From Thermococcus stetteri (GTDB taxonomy: Archaea > Methanobacteriota_B > Thermococci > Thermococcales > Thermococcaceae): a stretch of 64,000 nt of DNA. The translations under genes and the position numbers were made by a program. Location: the NCBI RefSeq assembly GCF_017873335.1, contig NZ_JAGGKB010000005.1:62001-126000 (forward strand), written 5' to 3'. The notes beneath the pieces are model-generated. The model did no database searches. It was not told the DNA's origin and saw only the letters and a list, made by a program, of their open reading frames with translations. Every line of letters starts with the position of its first letter. The stretch's first letter is position 1. This document shows, piece after piece, positions 225 to 25,687 of the stretch.

Positions 225-1699
225 CTTCTCAGCCCCCTGGGGAGCAGGAAGAACACGCTTATTATGAACACAAGCGTCGAGAATATCTCCAACCTGCCTA
301 TCCACATGAGGAGTATGTAGACGAACTTGAGATCGGGGGGCATCGCGGGGGAAGTTATGCCCACGCTGAGACCGACGTTCCCCTGAGCGGATGCCACCTC
401 AAAGAGAGCGTCCGCTAAGTTAGCGTGAACCCTTAGCATTGTGTAGAGGACCCCAGCAAGTAGAAACGCAACGTACGTTATCGTAAAGCTCATTACTTCC
501 TGGATATCCTCCTCACTGAAGACGTAGTTTCCGACCTTCCTCTTGATGACGGCACCCTTTGGGAGTATTGCGCTTTCAATTGTCCACTTAAGGCTCTCGT
601 ACATCAGGGTTATCCTTATCAGTTTTATTCCGCCGGCAGTACTTCCCGCACCACCACCTATCACCATCAGCACCGCCAGGAGAAACTTTCCAACCTCGGG
701 GTATTTAGAGAGGTCCGATATCTGGAATCCCGTACAGCTTATGGCGGAAACCGCGTGGAAGACCGCACCCTGGAGAGCGTCACCTAGAGAATCCCCAACC
801 TGAACCAGTCCATAGGCGATGAGGGAAATCGCCGGGATGAGGAAGAAGAACATGTACCTGACCTGGATGTCCGCGAAGAACGGTTTGAGGGACCTGTCCT
901 TGAAGACCCGATAGTGGACGGTGAAATTAACGGCACCCATTATCATCAGGAATATCGTTACGGCGTTTATCGCGGGACTGTGGAAGAACCCTATGCTCTC
1001 GTCGTGAGTGCTCATACCACCGGTACCGAGACCGGTCATGGAGTGCGTGAGCGCATCGAAGAGGCCCATCCCGTTGATGTAGTAGAGGTAAACACCAACA
1101 AGCGTCAGGACAAGGTATATCTCGAATATCACTTTGGCCGTGTTCACCAAGTTTGGAAGGATCCTCTCGCTCCTTGCCTCGGCCCTGTACAGCCTGGCCG
1201 CGGCAACGCCGGGTCGAATGAGGACGGTAAGGGCTACCAGTACTATACCAATCCCGCCGAGCCACTGCATCCACGCCCTCCAGAACAGCATCATCTTTGG
1301 ATAGCTCTGTAGGTTGCTCATCATCGTGAGGCCCGTGCCCGTCCACGCGCTCATGCACTCAAAATAAGAATCCAGCAGGGGCATATTGGCGATTTTCATA
1401 AAGGGGACAACACTGACGAGTGAAGCGAGGAGCCAGGTAAATGCGGCAGCCACCATCGCCTGCCTGAGGTTTACGTCCTCAATCCTGCTTGAGTGCCGGC
1501 TTAGCCAGGCTCCAAACAGGATAGAGGCCATCCCTGGCAGGGCAAAGTAGGGCACGTATTTTATCTCATCTGGATAGACCCACGCCAGCAGTGCGGGGAC
1601 GAGGTAAGCTACTCCAACACCCTCAAGTATCGATCCAGTGAGGTTTCTAACGACGAAAAAGTCATCGGAGACGTTGATGTGCTTCCTGAAGTCTAGCAT
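221..1699 (-). CDS. trkH: TrkH-family potassium uptake channel subunit
   Basis: A 492-residue integral membrane protein of the SKT (Trk/Ktr/HKT) superfamily, which conducts K+ across the cytoplasmic membrane. Four pore-loop segments with selectivity-filter glycines are visible: SAWTGTGLT (about 117-125), MTGLGTGG, SAISCTGF and ASAQGNVGLS. They are separated by hydrophobic helices, and the length matches the family. The ATG start is preceded by GGTGAGGGG. No trkA regulatory subunit lies beside it. The downstream overlapping gene is an ECF-type ATPase, an unusual partner. Confidence 0.93.
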   Translation of the reverse strand: MLDFRKHINVSDDFFVVRNLTGSILEGVGVAYLVPALLAWVYPDEIKYVPYFALPGMASILFGAWLSRHSSRIEDVNLRQAMVAAAFTWLLASLVSVVPFMKIANMPLLDSYFECMSAWTGTGLTMMSNLQSYPKMMLFWRAWMQWLGGIGIVLVALTVLIRPGVAAARLYRAEARSERILPNLVNTAKVIFEIYLVLTLVGVYLYYINGMGLFDALTHSMTGLGTGGMSTHDESIGFFHSPAINAVTIFLMIMGAVNFTVHYRVFKDRSLKPFFADIQVRYMFFFLIPAISLIAYGLVQVGDSLGDALQGAVFHAVSAISCTGFQISDLSKYPEVGKFLLAVLMVIGGGAGSTAGGIKLIRITLMYESLKWTIESAILPKGAVIKRKVGNYVFSEEDIQEVMSFTITYVAFLLAGVLYTMLRVHANLADALFEVASAQGNVGLSVGITSPAMPPDLKFVYILLMWIGRLEIFSTLVFIISVFFLLPRGLRR

Positions 1700-17044: not shown

Positions 17045-17494
17045 GTGTCAGTAAAAGGTGGGAATTTAATCGTGGCACTGGCTGTTCTAGTTGTCTTGGT
17101 GACTGCAGTAAGCTTGGTTGAAAATTCAACAAGGGAGCCCAATATTGGGAGCACACTCAACAGTTCAAACGCTACGATTGCCACCCTCCAAGACTGCTCC
17201 CTCACGGTGCTCCTTAACGGTACTTTCTCGGGACAGCTCAGCGTTCCGGCGCTAATAGCTGAGGGTGTTAAAGAGTACTTTGGGGGCATCAATGCCACTC
17301 TCTACTCCTTCGAAGTTGAGGTCATTGGAGACAGCGGCATGCCTAGGGCGGGCATTACCCTGCATCTTCTGAGGATAGTCCCGCCGTTTGAACCCGAGGA
17401 CTTTGAGGTTTTCATTAACGCCAAACAAGTTTCCGGGGAGACCTACGTGTCGGTTTACCCACATATTTCGTATCCACACAGAAGGAGATATTAA
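17045..17494 (+). pseudogene. Membrane-anchored extracytoplasmic protein, truncated at the 3' end
   Basis: About 150 codons from the GTG at 17045 (GGAGGT just upstream; TATA-like ACTTTTTATG about 40 nt before). An N-terminal anchor helix (LIVALAVLVVLVTAVSLV) is followed by an Asn/Ser/Thr-rich, probably glycosylated external domain (EVEVIGDSGMPRAG, FEVFINAKQVSGETYVSVYP). The frame ends in PHRRRY exactly where the convergent permease gene is also cut, so both seem to have lost their 3' parts in one deletion. Family unknown. Confidence 0.55.
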
Positions 17495-17905
17495 AGCTGA
17501 GCCCACCGCGCCGGTGATGGCAGCGGTGATTATTGCCGGCGTGAGGTGAACCCCATTCCCCACAGCCTTTTCGATGAACCAAAGTATGAACACGTTTAGA
17601 GAGCCGACGGTAAAAGACAGGAGGATTGAGAGGAGTGCCCTAATTCGAATTAAATCCCACGGCTCAATGGGAAGTGCAAAGAAGCGGGGTATAAGGCCAT
17701 TCTTGACGTCCCATTTGTATCTTCCCAGGCTGGATGGACCGAGAACTGCCGTCAGGAAGATTGGAATCGAAACGTCCCAGCTTTTTGTAGCGAGGCCACG
17801 AATAAAGGAAACTCCAAGGGGAATCGCCGCGAGAATATAAATTGTCCCCCATGAGAGAAAGCTGGACTTAATTCGCCCTATTTCATATCTCAAGACTGCA
17901 CCCAT
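17480..17905 (-). pseudogene. ABC-2 type permease, C-terminal half missing
   Basis: The first 138 or so residues are good membrane-protein sequence with about four helices (SFLSWGTIYILAAIPLGVSF; SIPIFLTAVLGPSSLG; ALLSILLSFTVGSLNVFILW; PAIITAAITGAVGSALISP). After that the frame runs on as antisense of the neighbouring plus-strand gene. A full permease would have about six helices. Its ATG abuts the stop of the ATPase gene, and the two formed one transporter operon. The break near 17480-17495 marks the deletion. Confidence 0.7.
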
Positions 17906-18736
17906 TAACTCTCCCTCCTAATGGCTTTTATCAGGGGCGTTACCTCTTCGACTACAATCCCTTTTTCCCTGCACCTTCTGATCAACTCGTCAACCCCCTC
18001 CGGGGATATAAGAATGACACTCCGTGGCCCTAAGGTTATTCCGCCGAGTTTTTCAACTCCATCCCCCGAGACCACATATGCCCTTGAGAACTCCTCTGGT
18101 TTAAACTGGGCCAACAATCGGCCGTCTACCATCAACATGACTCTGTCTGCCAGGTCCAGCGCAAACTCCATCTCATGAGAGACAATGAGCACGGCCGTTC
18201 CTTTGTTTTTTATACTCATAAGAACCCCCATGAGGAGCTCTTTTCCGCCACTGTCCAATCCAGAGAATGGTTCATCGAGAAGAAGGGCCTCTGGACGGTA
18301 TAAAAGTAATCTGCCGATTTCCAAGCGTTTTTTCATACCTTTAGAGTAGTTAAGCACCTTTTTCTTTCTTTCCGTAGAAAGACCAATTCTTTCCAGCACG
18401 GATGATATGACGTTTTCCTTGGGCTTTCTTCCGTTGTAGAGTTCATAGAAAAATTTAAGGTTCTCCTCTCCAGTCAGGAGCACATTCAACACTTCGGAGT
18501 CCAGAATAAAGCCAATTTTTTCCTCGTTTCCTTCGATGAGTAGGGGTCTCCTCCGCACACCCGTACCCTTCCAGAAGAGGGCTTAAGGAGGCCTAATCCC
18601 AGTTTTATGAGCGTGCTTTCCCACTCCCGTTTGGGCCGACAAGGAGAAGGCATTCCCCGGGTTCAACCTTCAGGTTAATCTCCCTAAGGACGTCCCGGCC
18701 ATTTACAGTGTATGAAACTTTACTGTACTCAATCAT
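17905..18736 (-). pseudogene. ABC transporter ATP-binding protein with two frameshifts
   Basis: From the ATG at 18736 the frame reads MIEYSKVSYTVNGRDVLREI up to the Walker A GPNGSGK. Loss of one A (forward T run 18617-18619) then shifts it. A second single-A loss (forward T run 18516-18521) shifts it again, after which the rest is intact: signature LNYSKGMKKRLEIGR, Walker B ALLLDEP and H-loop VSHEME. Restoring both bases gives a protein of about 277 residues. Partner of the truncated permease. Frameshifts in A runs could be sequencing errors, but the ruined permease suggests real decay. Confidence 0.75.
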
Positions 18737-18866
18737 CTTCGCCCACCCCCCAGCATTGCTGCACATGATGTGCATGCATACTTCAATGCACAGCTATTGC
18801 ATCTCAATTTCATATTTAGTTTCTGTTTTACTTCTTGAAGCTTTCGGCCTCTTTCAATGGCGTGTA

Positions 18867-19550
18867 AGCGTGGAAAAGAACCTTAAGTTCATAGCTGAAC
18901 TATGGGGAATTTCAAGGCAAGAAGCAGATAAAAGAATTAACTATGCCCTTAAGCTCTTGAACTTGGATGAAAAAAGGCACGAGTGGTACCAAAAGCTCTC
19001 CGCCGGAATGAGGCAGAAAGTCTACCTCGCATTGCCCTTCATCATCCAGCCTGAGGTTCTTATCCTGGATGAACCCACTGTGTATTTAGATGCCTTCACG
19101 AGAAGAGAAGTATGGAGCGCGATTCTTGAGCTTTCGAAGGATTTCAACACCACATACCCTGACAGCACACAACCTCAACGAGGCCGAAAAGCTATGCGAT
19201 AGGGTACTTCTCTTCAACAGGCGGAAAATAGCCAATGGTAAACCTCAAGAACTCGTTGAGAAAGTTCAGGTTCTAAAAGCAGAGCGCAAACTGATTGCTA
19301 AAATTAAAGGGAAGGTGGAGGTTGATGAGTTCAGCGGCATAGTTCAAAAAATTGAGGCTCAACACGATGGACGATTCACGTACCTCCGGCTTTATTTCAG
19401 AAAAAGGAACTCCAAGATACAATCCAGCTCCTGGCCAGGTACACCGTATTCGACCTTCAGAGTGCCCCAGTAACCCTTGAAGAGGTCTTCCTGCAGTTAT
19501 TCAAAGAAAATAAAGAAATCACCTCCTCGCGTACTCCACCATGCTCCTGA
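18867..19550 (+). pseudogene. Second ABC transporter ATPase, N-terminus lost and frameshifted
   Basis: Recognisable sequence begins abruptly at RVSVEKNLKFIAELWGISRQ and continues through signature KLSAGMRQK, Walker B VLILDEPTVYLD and H-loop TAHNLNEAEKLCDRV. It ends with a typical C-terminus ([20 protein letters not shown]). The Walker A half is absent. Frame changes occur near 19155 (one base extra) and at the A run about 19401-19405 (one base missing). The 3' end runs into the purQ gene on the other strand. The 130 bp before it (18737-18866) do not encode an ATPase N-terminus. Confidence 0.7.
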
Positions 19551-21392: not shown

Positions 21393-21479
21393 ATGGCAAA
21401 GTTAGATGAACTCGACCTCAAGCTAATCTACCTTTTAATTGACAATGCTAGACTCAGTATTTCTGAACTTGCCGAGAGA
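21393..21479 (+). pseudogene. Lrp/AsnC-family regulator, first 29 codons only
   Basis: MAKLDELDLKLIYLLIDNAR and the following LSISELAER are the start of an Lrp/AsnC helix-turn-helix domain. The frame then becomes antisense of a CCA-adding-enzyme fragment. The whole recognition helix and ligand domain are missing. The start has GGTGAGC a short way upstream, and the promoter with its inverted repeat is still present. Confidence 0.75.
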
Positions 21480-21635
21480 GCCAACAAAGTACAGCCTGAC
21501 GTCGAGGCCGAGCCTCTCTATTGTCTCTCCCGCGATTTCCTCAAGCTCCCCCATAAGTTCCTTTACGAAGGTCCTCTTCTCCTTGGTTGGCACGATTTTT
21601 TGAAGAACCTCGTCAATGACTTCTCCCATGTCCAT
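21468..21635 (-). pseudogene. CCA-adding enzyme (tRNA nucleotidyltransferase), N-terminal fragment
   Basis: Reading leftward from ATG 21635: MGEVIDEVLQKIVPTKEKRT, then ELMGELEEIAGETIERLGLD and YFVGSLGK. This is the N-terminus of the archaeal class I CCA-adding enzyme up to the nucleotidyltransferase GS motif. It stops after about 56 codons, where the Lrp fragment begins. The full enzyme is near 450 residues and essential, so an intact copy must be elsewhere. The junction lies in about 11 bp (21468-21478) that read sensibly in both genes. Confidence 0.75.
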
Positions 21636-21712
21636 GCCCACACCTGGTTGTAGTCTGATATCAAACACAATTATTGTTACCGTGGTACCAACGATGGGGT
21701 ATGGCGGCGCTG

Positions 21713-22094: not shown

Positions 22095-22122
22095 CTCTTC
22101 GAGTCAACGTTTCTTCATGACG

Positions 22123-22431
22123 TCAAAGGATTTTTTCGATGAGAACCACCAAAGCCAGCTCTATGACGAGGCCGAGGAGCATGAAATACTCCCTCCTGAT
22201 GTTGATGATGAAGGCTAAGGCAAGCCACAGGAGCGTGAATGCCCCGATTGCTGTCAGTTTCCCCTCTGGAATGCTCCCATCGAGGTATCCCCCAAGCACG
22301 AACGTGAAAATTAGTCCACCAATTTGAACCCACATCCATTGGCGGTTGATTTGTCGTGGGAAGTCCATGAATGCCAGTGCAAAAAGGAAGAGGAAGTAAA
22401 TGAATGGAAGCACGAAAGTCCAGCGCTTCAT
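22123..22431 (-). CDS. Small four-helix membrane protein
   Basis: A 102-residue protein with about four hydrophobic segments (FVLPFIYFLFLFALAFMDF; WVQIGGLIFTFVLGGYL; LTAIGAFTLLWLALAFII; FMLLGLVIELALVVLIEKIL). I placed the start at the ATG at 22431, which follows AGGTGAAAAGC. A TATA-like CATTTTTAAGTG is about 40 nt upstream. No family recognised. Confidence 0.6.
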   Translation of the reverse strand: MKRWTFVLPFIYFLFLFALAFMDFPRQINRQWMWVQIGGLIFTFVLGGYLDGSIPEGKLTAIGAFTLLWLALAFIINIRREYFMLLGLVIELALVVLIEKIL

Positions 22432-22620
22432 GCTTTTCACCTCAAGGATTCGGTAAATGGTAGTCATTTTTAAGTGTGTAGCTGGCTATGCATTACTACT
22501 TGGATGGTTTATCCCTTATAAGCTTTTACTTTTACTAATTGTAATTATCTTTTCTTTTTTTCAAGTATGAATTTATTCTAATTTATATTATCTCTTTTAA
22601 AACCGTTCAAAAGAAGCCTA

Positions 22621-23018
<398 letters not shown>

Positions 23019-23076
23019 GGTATAATAAATGTTAGGTTTAGGGTCAGTGAATGTAGCTCAGTGTCGTCTTCAATTT

Positions 23077-24213
23077 TCAGGAGAAATAAGATCTGAAAAT
23101 TTCGATAGCAACCGTCATTGCCAATACCTCCAGATACCTGTGGTAGATTATGTACGGATAGTGTTTGAGGAATGGGTTAGTGGGGTCAGAAAGCTTCTCA
23201 AGGTTGTAATTGTCTAAGCGGTTTAGATCCAATAGAACATAGGTTGAAAGTAGCTCTGCATATGGTCCATTATTGTTTTCATGCATGATCCTGAGCGCCC
23301 TTTCGTATATCTCCTTCCTGAGACCAGTTATATTGTATGGGACATCAGCTCTTGTTTGGTATGCACCATAATATGGGTAAGGAACCTCTGCCCATTCTGT
23401 TTCCGCCAATTTTAGATGGGCGAGCGCAACTGAGTAGTACCAAAGTGATAGGGATTTTTCCCCTTTATAAAAAGCAGATTCAGAAAGATTTAACCATCCA
23501 AGTCCAAGACCGATTAAATCCCCCCTTAAATCCTTCTTTTCTCTCATGCTCTTTTCTAATTCTTTGAACTCTTCTTGTGTTCGGGTGATATTTTGTAGAT
23601 CAAAGTTTATTTTCTTGTATTTGTAATCTCTCCTGTTGACATGTCTCTGGAGGAATGGTACAAGGGCATTAAGATCAAAGGCTGCCCTGGTATTGGTGGC
23701 ATTGGTTTCATATTCTGCAAGCTCCCATTGTACATATAATTCTCCAATTGCCATCCAAGGGGATTGTCCCTTAATGTGTTCTGTCTTATTCATTTCTGCC
23801 AATAAATCTTCTAACTTAGTTCTAGCTAAGTTGATATCACCAAACTCTCTTTTACACTCGATCATGTCATAATGGAGATACGCAACAGTTGGAACGAATG
23901 TGTAGATTTTAAAAGTATAAAAGTCCTTCGAAATCTCACTCATCTCACACTTACTTTGGCTAAGGTTCAGAGCCATGGAATTTGCTTCATCTATTAGGAC
24001 ACTATCAGTAGTTAGTCCACTGAAGTTGGTTAGAGAGTAGGTCATCTTCATTTTTTTAATTTCTTCTGTTGTGTACACATAGGGTGGGACATTCTGAATC
24101 TCTGCTTTCCCTTTCGAAAGCAAAAAGTCCTTGGTAGTACCCACAACATATATTCCAAAGAGTATAAGGATTATAAAAAAAAGTGCTGTAAACTTTATGT
24201 CCAGCGAATCCAT
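23077..24213 (-). CDS. Membrane-anchored protein with a large external helical domain, unknown function
   Basis: A 378-residue protein. One N-terminal anchor helix (FTALFFIILILFGIYVVGTT, about 8-27) is followed by an extracytoplasmic domain rich in helices, Tyr and potential N-glycosylation sites (NLSQS, NKTE, NATN, NITR). Repeated patterns such as ELYVQWELAEYE, WLNLSESAFYKGEKSLSLWY and ALAHLKLAETEW suggest TPR-like helical hairpins. It is clearly more AT-rich than the core genes. It is second in a two-gene operon 10 nt after the secreted-protein gene. No family recognised; probably acquired. Confidence 0.7.
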   Translation of the reverse strand: MDSLDIKFTALFFIILILFGIYVVGTTKDFLLSKGKAEIQNVPPYVYTTEEIKKMKMTYSLTNFSGLTTDSVLIDEANSMALNLSQSKCEMSEISKDFYTFKIYTFVPTVAYLHYDMIECKREFGDINLARTKLEDLLAEMNKTEHIKGQSPWMAIGELYVQWELAEYETNATNTRAAFDLNALVPFLQRHVNRRDYKYKKINFDLQNITRTQEEFKELEKSMREKKDLRGDLIGLGLGWLNLSESAFYKGEKSLSLWYYSVALAHLKLAETEWAEVPYPYYGAYQTRADVPYNITGLRKEIYERALRIMHENNNGPYAELLSTYVLLDLNRLDNYNLEKLSDPTNPFLKHYPYIIYHRYLEVLAMTVAIEIFRSYFS

Positions 24214-24223
24214 GGCTAACCCC

Positions 24224-25072
24224 TCATCTGTTTATGACCACCTTAAGGGTATAACTGGTCCTAGTTTGAATACTCTCCTCGTAGCTGGTTATCCCTTCGA
24301 TTCTCTCTTCTCTGTCATTGTAAGTTTGGGGAAGCCTTGGTGAAGTTAACCATCCAAAATGAGTATTCGAATATATCTTCACCTTGGAAGATGCCTCTAT
24401 AATATAGTAGAAGGTGCCTCTAGGAAGCGAATTTCTGTTTAGAACCGTGACTTCAAACATTGCCCCTGCAGTAGTTGCTGGGGTTAATTGTTCTGAGATA
24501 CTGTCCATTCCAGATACTTGCGTATACAGAGTACTTGAACTTAAGTCTTTCATTAGTTGGATTGAGGACTCTACTAAGCCACCCCCAGGAATTAAGGACA
24601 ATACAACAGACTTTATAAAGCTAACAGTAGCTTCCACATACCGGTAATTTGAAGGGATGTTACTTTCCTGATTACTTAGCTTTTCTACAAGATAGAATTT
24701 AACAAATGTTTGAGCTTGTTGTGGTTTATTTGTAACTCTAAGTGTTATCCATTTATCATTAACAAAATAGCAGGTACTAAAATGACACAAAGGCTCGTTA
24801 TCAACACTAGTCACACTAGTGACTATTAACAGTTGTTCCGGATCATATCCATCTCCCTGAATAGGATACGAACCTGTAAGAAACAACGCTTCAGTGGCAT
24901 GTGAACCGGGGGAGACTGCCACCGGACCCCTCCAGAGAAAGCCACTATCTCCACCACCATAACCTGGAGTTACTGCAGAAGGGCTTACTTTTTGACTAAC
25001 TGCCAGTGCCTGCTGGGTAATTAGTGATATAATAACAAACAACACACCCATGTATTTAACTTTTCTTTTCAT
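24224..25072 (-). CDS. Secreted protein, unknown function
   Basis: A 282-residue protein with a Sec signal peptide (MKRKVKYMGVLFVIISLITQ followed by QALA, cleavage near 24-25). The mature part is beta-rich, with a glycine-rich start (PGYGGGDSGFLWRG), one probable disulfide pair (CHFSTC) and a short hydrophobic stretch (SFIKSVVLSLIPGGGLV). AAGGTGGTT lies before the ATG. It heads the AT-rich two-gene operon. Family not recognised; a surface-layer or envelope role is only inferred from export. Confidence 0.7.
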   Translation of the reverse strand: MKRKVKYMGVLFVIISLITQQALAVSQKVSPSAVTPGYGGGDSGFLWRGPVAVSPGSHATEALFLTGSYPIQGDGYDPEQLLIVTSVTSVDNEPLCHFSTCYFVNDKWITLRVTNKPQQAQTFVKFYLVEKLSNQESNIPSNYRYVEATVSFIKSVVLSLIPGGGLVESSIQLMKDLSSSTLYTQVSGMDSISEQLTPATTAGAMFEVTVLNRNSLPRGTFYYIIEASSKVKIYSNTHFGWLTSPRLPQTYNDREERIEGITSYEESIQTRTSYTLKVVINR

Positions 25073-25106
25073 ATAACCACCTTGTATTATTAAATTATAC
25101 TCAATG

Positions 25107-25121
25107 AGGCATTATAAACTT
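25107..25121 (-). promoter_or_regulatory. Promoter of the secreted-protein operon
   Basis: On the minus strand AAAAAGTTTATAATG forms a BRE-like purine run plus TATA element about 40 nt before the start codon at 25072, leaving a short leader with the ribosome binding site AAGGTGG. Confidence 0.6.
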
Positions 25122-25315
25122 TTTGGCATTGAACAGTATTGGAGCAAAATTGTGGGTGAGGTTTTTAAGTTAGAATGAGGACTGTAAATCATGCCGAGGA
25201 GGAGAAAATAGAAAATAAACTGGGCAGGTATGAACAGTTGTCCGCTTTAGGTTGCCTGCTGCAATTTTTACTGAAATTTTTAGAAAAATAATCCTGTTAA
25301 ACCTCGTTCAGGTGA

Positions 25316-25548
25316 TCAAAATTCTCTGTTTTTCACTGCGAGGAGTTTTGGCTGGTAGATTGCTTCTGCTATTTTCTGAACTGTTTCCCAGACGGTTGTG
25401 TGGCTGATTTTGAGGATTCTGGCGGTTTGTCTGTAGCTTAAGCCGTGTAGGTATAGGTTTATTGCTCTGACTTTCTTTTCTGGTGGGATTTTGTTTCGGC
25501 GAAAAGGTTTTAAGGGAATAAATGGTGAATAATGGTTTCAGCTTGCAT
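25316..25548 (-). mobile_element. IS6-family transposase remnant (N-terminal DNA-binding part)
   Basis: From ATG 25548: MQAETIIHHLF, a one-base frame slip, then PLKPFRRNKIPPEKKVRAIN and LYLHGLSYRQTARILKISHT up to TVWETVQKIAEAIYQPKLLA. This is the helix-turn-helix N-terminus of the transposases of IS6-type elements found in Pyrococcus and Thermococcus. It stops after VKNREF at 25316, so the DDE catalytic domain is gone. I could not identify the terminal inverted repeats with confidence. Confidence 0.75.
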
Positions 25549-25605
25549 ATTCCCCCTTTCTTCTTCTGTGGTAGTGTCTGGGATTTAAACCTGACGCCCC
25601 ACTGC

Positions 25606-25687
25606 TTATCCTGACAGTATCCTTTAAAGCCGCGGCAAATCCCGCCGCTCCACCTCCGATAATAACAAAATCATACTCATTCATCAT
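25606..25687 (-). pseudogene. FAD-dependent oxidoreductase (mercuric-reductase-like), N-terminal stub
   Basis: MMNEYDFVIIGGGAAGFAAA begins at ATG 25687 behind GGAGGT. The GGGAAGFAA motif is the FAD-binding Rossmann signature of the glutaredoxin/mercuric reductase class. After ALK the frame becomes unrelated and runs into the IS6 remnant. It lies downstream of the HMA and YHS genes on the same strand, which suggests a former metal-handling operon cut by the insertion. Confidence 0.6.

Follow-up and report, generated by a model that had tools for sequence, protein, structure and literature searches.

We analysed a window of 64,000 nucleotides from Thermococcus stetteri (contig NZ_JAGGKB010000005.1, positions 62,001 to 126,000; "the window" refers throughout to this whole stretch), in which two minus-strand genes, here called A and B, lie 10 nt apart and are organised as an operon under a TATA-type promoter of their own (Table 1). 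A two-gene operon for a signal-peptide protein and an anchored protein had been predicted from the sequence beforehand, and both frames proved to be intact and co-directional. The promoter predicted for the pair is likewise present: a TATA-type box, AAAAAGTTTATAAT, was read directly from the sequence at 25124-25111, upstream of A, and a Shine-Dalgarno-like AAGGTGGT stands immediately 5' of the A start codon. The G+C content is 0.40 for A and 0.39 for B compared with 0.52 for the whole window, in accord with the lower value noticed earlier. Judged from its sequence, A is probably secreted; it has a signal peptide ending in ALA, a mature part of about 260 residues, two conserved cysteines (Cys 96 and 101), a hydrophobic stretch near residues 148-168 and no N-glycosylation sequon. 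B, predicted to be membrane-anchored, has a single strongly hydrophobic N-terminal segment (residues 6-24) and seven N-glycosylation sequons.

Neither protein gave a match above the cut-off in Pfam, NCBIfam or PHROGs, and the original prediction had recognised neither family. Sub-threshold Pfam matches to DUF6661 and CHU_C were rejected. Profile searches against the PDB returned weak, chance-like matches, to helical haemagglutinin segments for B (E-value 0.03) and with a best E-value of 0.15 for A. AlphaFold2 models, based on alignments of two sequences (the window and L117), had predicted local distance difference test (pLDDT) scores of 35 for A and 41 for B. B had also been described as tetratricopeptide repeat (TPR)-like; Pfam found no TPR match in it and its model is of low confidence, and of that description "mostly helical" and "N-anchored" alone survive. 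We rejected a viral or plasmid origin of A/B, as the collections searched held no homologue: no relative of A or B was present in viral_contigs, none of A in plasmids and none of B in phages (phages were searched for B alone and plasmids for A alone).

The whole cassette is 93.6% identical in DNA to its counterpart in genome G023, while three stretches of core DNA (4.7-kb query) are 80-84% identical. The flanks of the cassette are unrelated. The comparison indicates that the A/B cassette moved recently, and the recent arrival proposed in the original prediction is upheld. The ratios of nonsynonymous to synonymous substitution rates (dN/dS) against the closest relative are 0.36 for A (0.26 for its mature part) and 0.49 for B, which argues that both genes are under constraint; with intact frames and ratios below 1, the suggestion that the pair is in current use also stands.

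Occurrence of A and B in other genomes

We searched 115 genomes of the class with profiles of A and B. B was detected in 11 genomes (12 loci) and a substantial A in six, and further weak matches of the A profile cover mostly the signal peptide region. Relatives fall in one family, and the genome of the window is Thermococcaceae-like. The pairing, which the original prediction had expected to recur, is not peculiar to the window; B lies directly downstream of A in all six genomes with a substantial A, and no locus carries A without B. A is intact at five of the 12 B loci (G000, G023-C49, G012, G010 and G082). At the other seven it has an internal deletion (G094), survives as a C-terminal relic (G112) or is absent (G027, G023-C30, G064, G066 and G068). 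A's promoter region is kept in front of B in G027, G112 and G023-C30, and at the last of these a leader-like remnant, recognised by eye from the sequence, precedes B.

A shared 5' region, its families and their slots

The A homologues in G012, G010, G082 and G094 start with a leader (MEVNHVKWKPLLAVLLGLL-like) that is common to unrelated secreted genes, and a conserved region of about 150 bp lies upstream of those in G012, G010 and G082; the G094 contig begins too close to the gene to show it. A 27-bp element of the shared region, searched with up to three mismatches, gave 103 matches in 49 of the 115 genomes, all in the family of the window, and the reversed pattern gave none. We examined 85 of the 103 sites, two of which are cut by contig ends, and at 69 of the 83 testable sites the leader lies 119-135 nt downstream of the element on the same strand. 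The consensus includes a dyad, TTGCATn4ATGCAA, present with at most one mismatch at 72 of the 85 sites; its left half, which lies outside the search pattern, is present at 80 of the 85 with the same tolerance. A second dyad, TTTACTn3AGTAAA, was found with at most one mismatch at 49 of 84 sites compared with 6 of 1700 shuffles, and the consensus region also holds a TATA box, CTTATAAG. The idea that the element is the end of a mobile element was dropped because it keeps a fixed spacing and orientation before the TATA box and the leader.

Behind the shared region, the mature parts make up 18 families (19 clusters minus L160, which has no leader). Profile comparison showed these families to be unrelated save for one possible pair, and linked cluster 12 to A. 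Pfam gave no match above the cut-off for 18 representatives (L160 among them; the A family was tested separately), and NCBIfam gave none for 10 representatives of the secreted families. A gene with a membrane segment follows within 150 nt downstream in 40 of the 58 intact secreted genes of at least 150 residues (39 assigned automatically plus L056, where the automatic choice was an antisense open reading frame, ORF), compared with 4 of 16 in a small control from the same loci. The pairs are modular: many secreted families have partner types of their own, and the same chromosomal positions are occupied by different families. Six families share the slot upstream of thpR-cca (17 loci), seven the slot beside leuS (10 loci), four that beside an aldehyde-ferredoxin-oxidoreductase-like gene (11 loci) and five, A's included, that upstream of DNA polymerase B (8 loci), the gene names being our reading of the sequences. 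The leuS slot of the window's own genome (L244:2967-7013) carries two further shared-leader cassettes in tandem, one encoding a 394-residue secreted and a 129-residue membrane protein, the other a 421-residue secreted protein and a 189-residue anchored partner.

That the cassettes have one 5' region in common, with two dyad-symmetric sites in it, suggests that a single regulator serves them, and one could envisage that the secreted proteins are signals, their membrane partners receptors and the shared region the mark of a signalling regulon. We consider communication of this kind highly improbable, given that A retains some 260 residues after its signal peptide, that a separate receptor would be required for every one of many unrelated mature families, and that no domain for signal transduction was found in B by Pfam.

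Loss of the secreted gene and the surroundings of A/B

Fourteen non-edge element sites have no leader gene; eight of them are followed by membrane-protein genes, three by peptide and radical S-adenosylmethionine (SAM) genes and one by ATP-binding cassette (ABC) transporter genes only, and two are relics. At the eight sites the promoter region, degenerate in some and most so in L160, leads directly to one or more membrane-protein genes. Six of these are homologous to partners that stand beside secreted genes elsewhere, L137 adjoins a secreted relic, and the gene at L145 resembles that at L137 by eye. At the three peptide sites, a Cys-containing peptide of 34-36 residues (MEELIVLE...) is accompanied by genes for a radical SAM protein (PF04055) and for an ABC transporter. 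Pfam found the radical SAM domain in L128, L134 and L163 and confirmed the ABC ATPase in L134; L128 has both ATPase and permease, and in L134 and L163 the examined sequence ends before the permease position. In gene content these sites resemble a modified-peptide antimicrobial cluster.

The window itself holds a case of a lost secreted gene beside A/B, in a second cassette, of family 1. Its shared 5' region retains a degenerate element, TACAACTCTTTTACATAGGCTTCTTTT, at 22635-22609 and the TATA box CTTATAAG near 22521, and the adjoining DNA at 22098-22489 is 98.2% identical to part of the cassette in G079. In G079 the counterparts of 22098-22489 and 22489-22679 flank about 860 bp that carry the gene for a secreted protein of 297 residues; in the window, a clean deletion of about 860 bp at 22489 removes the secreted gene including its start codon, and the family-1 promoter stands directly 5' of the intact partner gene. 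A/B adjoins a cassette reduced to its partner gene.

Among family-1 partner loci (at least 50% identity, 17 genomes), in raw counts that ignore phylogeny, both genes are open at six of 17, the secreted gene is broken or absent and the partner open at nine, the reverse holds at one (G008, a stop in the partner) and one lies at a contig edge (G016). The nine partner-only loci, of which the window is one, comprise five in which the secreted gene is broken or reduced (G000, G025, G072, G112 and G068) and four in which it was not found within about 1.5 kb (G029, G007, G020 and G034). A reciprocal search with the family-1 secreted protein revealed no genome that carries the secreted gene without the partner.

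We propose, with a probability of roughly 0.52, that A/B is a weapon-and-immunity pair and a member of a mobile cassette set that extends through Thermococcaceae. The first gene of each cassette would encode a Sec-secreted protein and, in most cassettes, the next a specific membrane protein. A would most likely be an archaeocin-like effector protein, secreted and directed against related cells; B, whose ectodomain would face outwards from its membrane anchor, would most likely bind or block A and protect the A producer as its immunity protein. The original prediction had suggested, with a "perhaps", a surface complex, in which A would be a subunit that is secreted or loosely attached and B would anchor it, in a housekeeping or ecological role such as ligand capture, adhesion or an S-layer accessory. 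Such a complex is possible and would accommodate the signal peptide of A, the anchor and sequon-rich ectodomain of B, the adjacency, co-transfer and constraint of the two genes and the retention of B by itself in three genomes that belong to another genus. We regard it nevertheless as rather unlikely; the distribution is very patchy (A in 6 and B in 11 of 115 genomes), the leader and promoter are common to unrelated secreted families exchanged in the same slots, and the secreted subunit has been lost repeatedly, leaving the anchor gene under the promoter that the lost gene had. Because the secreted gene is repeatedly lost and the anchored partner kept, effector and immunity fit better than a complex: immunity predicts that a partner should be worth keeping after the secreted mate has gone, which a structural complex does not predict well.

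Several observations weigh against the weapon-and-immunity proposal. In none of the 18 families, nor in A itself, was a known toxin domain recognised by Pfam or NCBIfam. The A gene of the window and its twin in G023 lack the shared element and 5' region, and the window's A lacks the shared leader as well. Eighteen of the 58 intact secreted genes, mostly of families 2 and 0, have no adjacent membrane partner, the secreted-only sites L191, L124 and L189 belong to families that have partners elsewhere, and in G008 it is the partner gene that has a stop and the secreted gene that is open. The orphan B of the other genus might serve a function by itself. The loss counts ignore phylogeny, and the losses in G064, G066 and G068 are probably one event. 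The AlphaFold2 models of A and B are too poor for judging fold or interaction.

A broader proposal is put forward tentatively, at odds somewhat short of even: the cassettes of Thermococcaceae may form a single regulon for antagonism, with promoter and leader in common and with members that can be exchanged. It would comprise at least 18 unrelated secreted proteins and the modified-peptide (radical SAM) clusters, most with a membrane immunity gene of their own; they would be swapped in fixed slots, and immune non-producers would be widespread. A/B would then be a cassette that left the shared promoter, and the orphan membrane gene of the window the immunity remnant of another. To our knowledge, antagonism among hyperthermophilic archaea is almost undescribed, and the conserved regulatory element and leader would, if this is true, provide a search handle for an arsenal of unknown proteins. 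The literature searched, which covered few subscription papers, yielded no account of either the shared leader or the element, and the cassette set is apparently unnamed so far.

The remaining features around A/B are included in Table 1. Gene relics on both sides of the cassette and an insertion sequence stub to its right had been predicted; the ribonucleotide reductase and cca fragments and the helix-turn-helix (HTH) stub agree with this, but the ORF at 22123-22467 is not debris: the gene is intact, and homologues of it occur in 24 of the 115 genomes, its own included. In other genomes the slot of family 1 is bordered by the cca-like gene. A further gene relic, the truncated start of an FAD/NAD reductase (MMNEYDFVIIGGGAAGFAAALK...), was noted by eye at 25538-25687, on the right-hand side of the transposase stub. 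ABC transporter pieces at 17252-19202 (ATPase fragments and a permease-like ORF, 30-36% identical to the ABC genes of some cassettes) are probably ordinary. Upstream of A/B in G023, a minus-strand gene (L009:12213-13295) encodes a protein that has a signal peptide and, towards its C terminus, weakly matches restriction-endonuclease-like profiles (UPF0102, E-value 1e-4, and Mrr_cat, E-value 0.0015, both below the cut-off); with the adjoining gene for a 263-residue protein (L009:11387-12178, minus strand) it may make up a further pair of secreted effector and immunity protein. Next to the orphan B in G068 (L053:4047-7067), a 483-residue radical SAM peptide maturase-like protein and a transporter of the major facilitator superfamily type were seen by eye.

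Table 1. Features of the A/B locus (window positions) and of the peptide sites in other loci
Feature	Position	Strand	Remarks
Gene A	24224..25072	-	intact frame, 282 residues, predicted secreted; homologues in other genomes
Gene B	23077..24213	-	intact frame, 378 residues, N-terminal membrane anchor, predicted ectodomain mostly helical
A/B promoter	25073..25126	-	TATA-type box and Shine-Dalgarno-like AAGGTGGT; inside the transferred segment
Whole A/B cassette	23016..25126	-	sharp ends, unrelated flanks
Orphan membrane partner gene, family 1	22123..22467	-	114 residues as called; likelier start at 22431, 102 residues
Shared 5' regulatory region, family-1 cassette	22489..22679	-	95.8% identical to G079
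Ribonucleotide reductase fragment	~22713-22845		PF02867, E-value 6.5e-7
Fragment of tRNA nucleotidyltransferase-like (cca) gene	21473..21643	-	~170 nt; gene name is a reading of the sequence
Transposase-like HTH stub	25319..25537	-	right of cassette; PF13384, E-value 1.1e-6, above cut-off
Peptide/radical SAM sites	L128:267-371; L134 ~269-373; L163 ~270-380		next genes downstream

Comparison with known systems

The VARTIG modules, as portrayed in the portions of Makarova et al. 2021 (PMC8416519) covered here, are restricted to Thermococcales, hypervariable, patchy and recently acquired, with specific membrane proteins encoded downstream of a secreted first gene; they feature an immunoglobulin (Ig)-domain protein of more than 500 residues (arCOG07710, Ig/CARDB) and a C-terminal DNNxxxGG, in islands of up to 25 genes. 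A/B resembles them in its restriction to Thermococcales, its patchy and recent occurrence and its secreted first gene followed by a specific membrane protein, and differs in being a two-gene cassette with no Ig match and no DNNxxxGG motif. We rejected the assignment of A/B to VARTIG, since A has 282 residues and no Pfam match above the cut-off, ends in ...YTLKVVINR and lacks DNNxxxGG. A large protein of the Ig/CARDB type was likewise not seen, none of the 18 representatives of element-linked clusters (L160 among them) having a Pfam match above the cut-off. A common promoter or leader is not mentioned in those portions of PMC8416519, where the word "promoter" occurs 0 times. Self/non-self recognition or surface diversification is one of three hypotheses that the same portions offer for VARTIG, and the cassettes, being modular, hypervariable, Thermococcales-restricted and membrane-associated in the same way, could by that reasoning encode variable secreted proteins and receptors that mark kin. 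This appears improbable for A/B; there is no Ig domain, the proteins are much smaller, the genes form single pairs rather than islands, and the gene that is lost is the secreted one, which is unexpected for a pair of mark and receptor.

Polymorphic toxin systems combine a constant N-terminal part and a variable remainder with an adjacent immunity gene, and orphan immunity genes are found with them. The cassettes share the constant N-terminal part, the variable remainder, the adjacent immunity-like gene and the orphan partners; unlike those systems, they have the signal peptide alone as constant part and lack both a trafficking domain and any recognised toxin domain. NisI and SpaI are anchored extracellular immunity proteins. 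B may be compared with them by analogy of working, in that an anchored ectodomain would intercept a secreted antimicrobial; no sequence relation is claimed, and the anchor of B is an N-terminal helix rather than that of a bacterial lipoprotein. Class II bacteriocins proper are short peptides that have a double-glycine leader and an exporter dedicated to them. A was rejected as one on account of its Sec-type signal peptide, its mature protein of about 260 residues and an operon with no exporter.

By analogy, the set that includes A/B would work most like a bacteriocin-immunity region (BIR). In the pneumococcal blp locus, a shared leader and promoter stand in front of the products. The repertoire of this BIR varies between strains and the secreted product is paired with an immunity gene, according to the part of the source covered here (PMC6422914). 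The cassettes resemble blp in their variable secreted product, paired gene, strain-variable repertoire and common control; they differ in their Sec-type signal peptide, products of about 150-490 residues, dispersal over several slots and archaeal host. A shared promoter and leader before different products, as in blp, is found for the A homologues and not for the window copy. A partner that stands beside the putative effector and is kept as an orphan is found in both cases compared, as regards arrangement and asymmetry only, with seven partner-only or damaged-A loci against no A-only locus for A/B and nine against one for family 1. If the proposal is true, the cassettes would be an archaeal parallel to the bacteriocin-immunity polymorphism of bacteria, with some cells retaining the shield after giving up the weapon.
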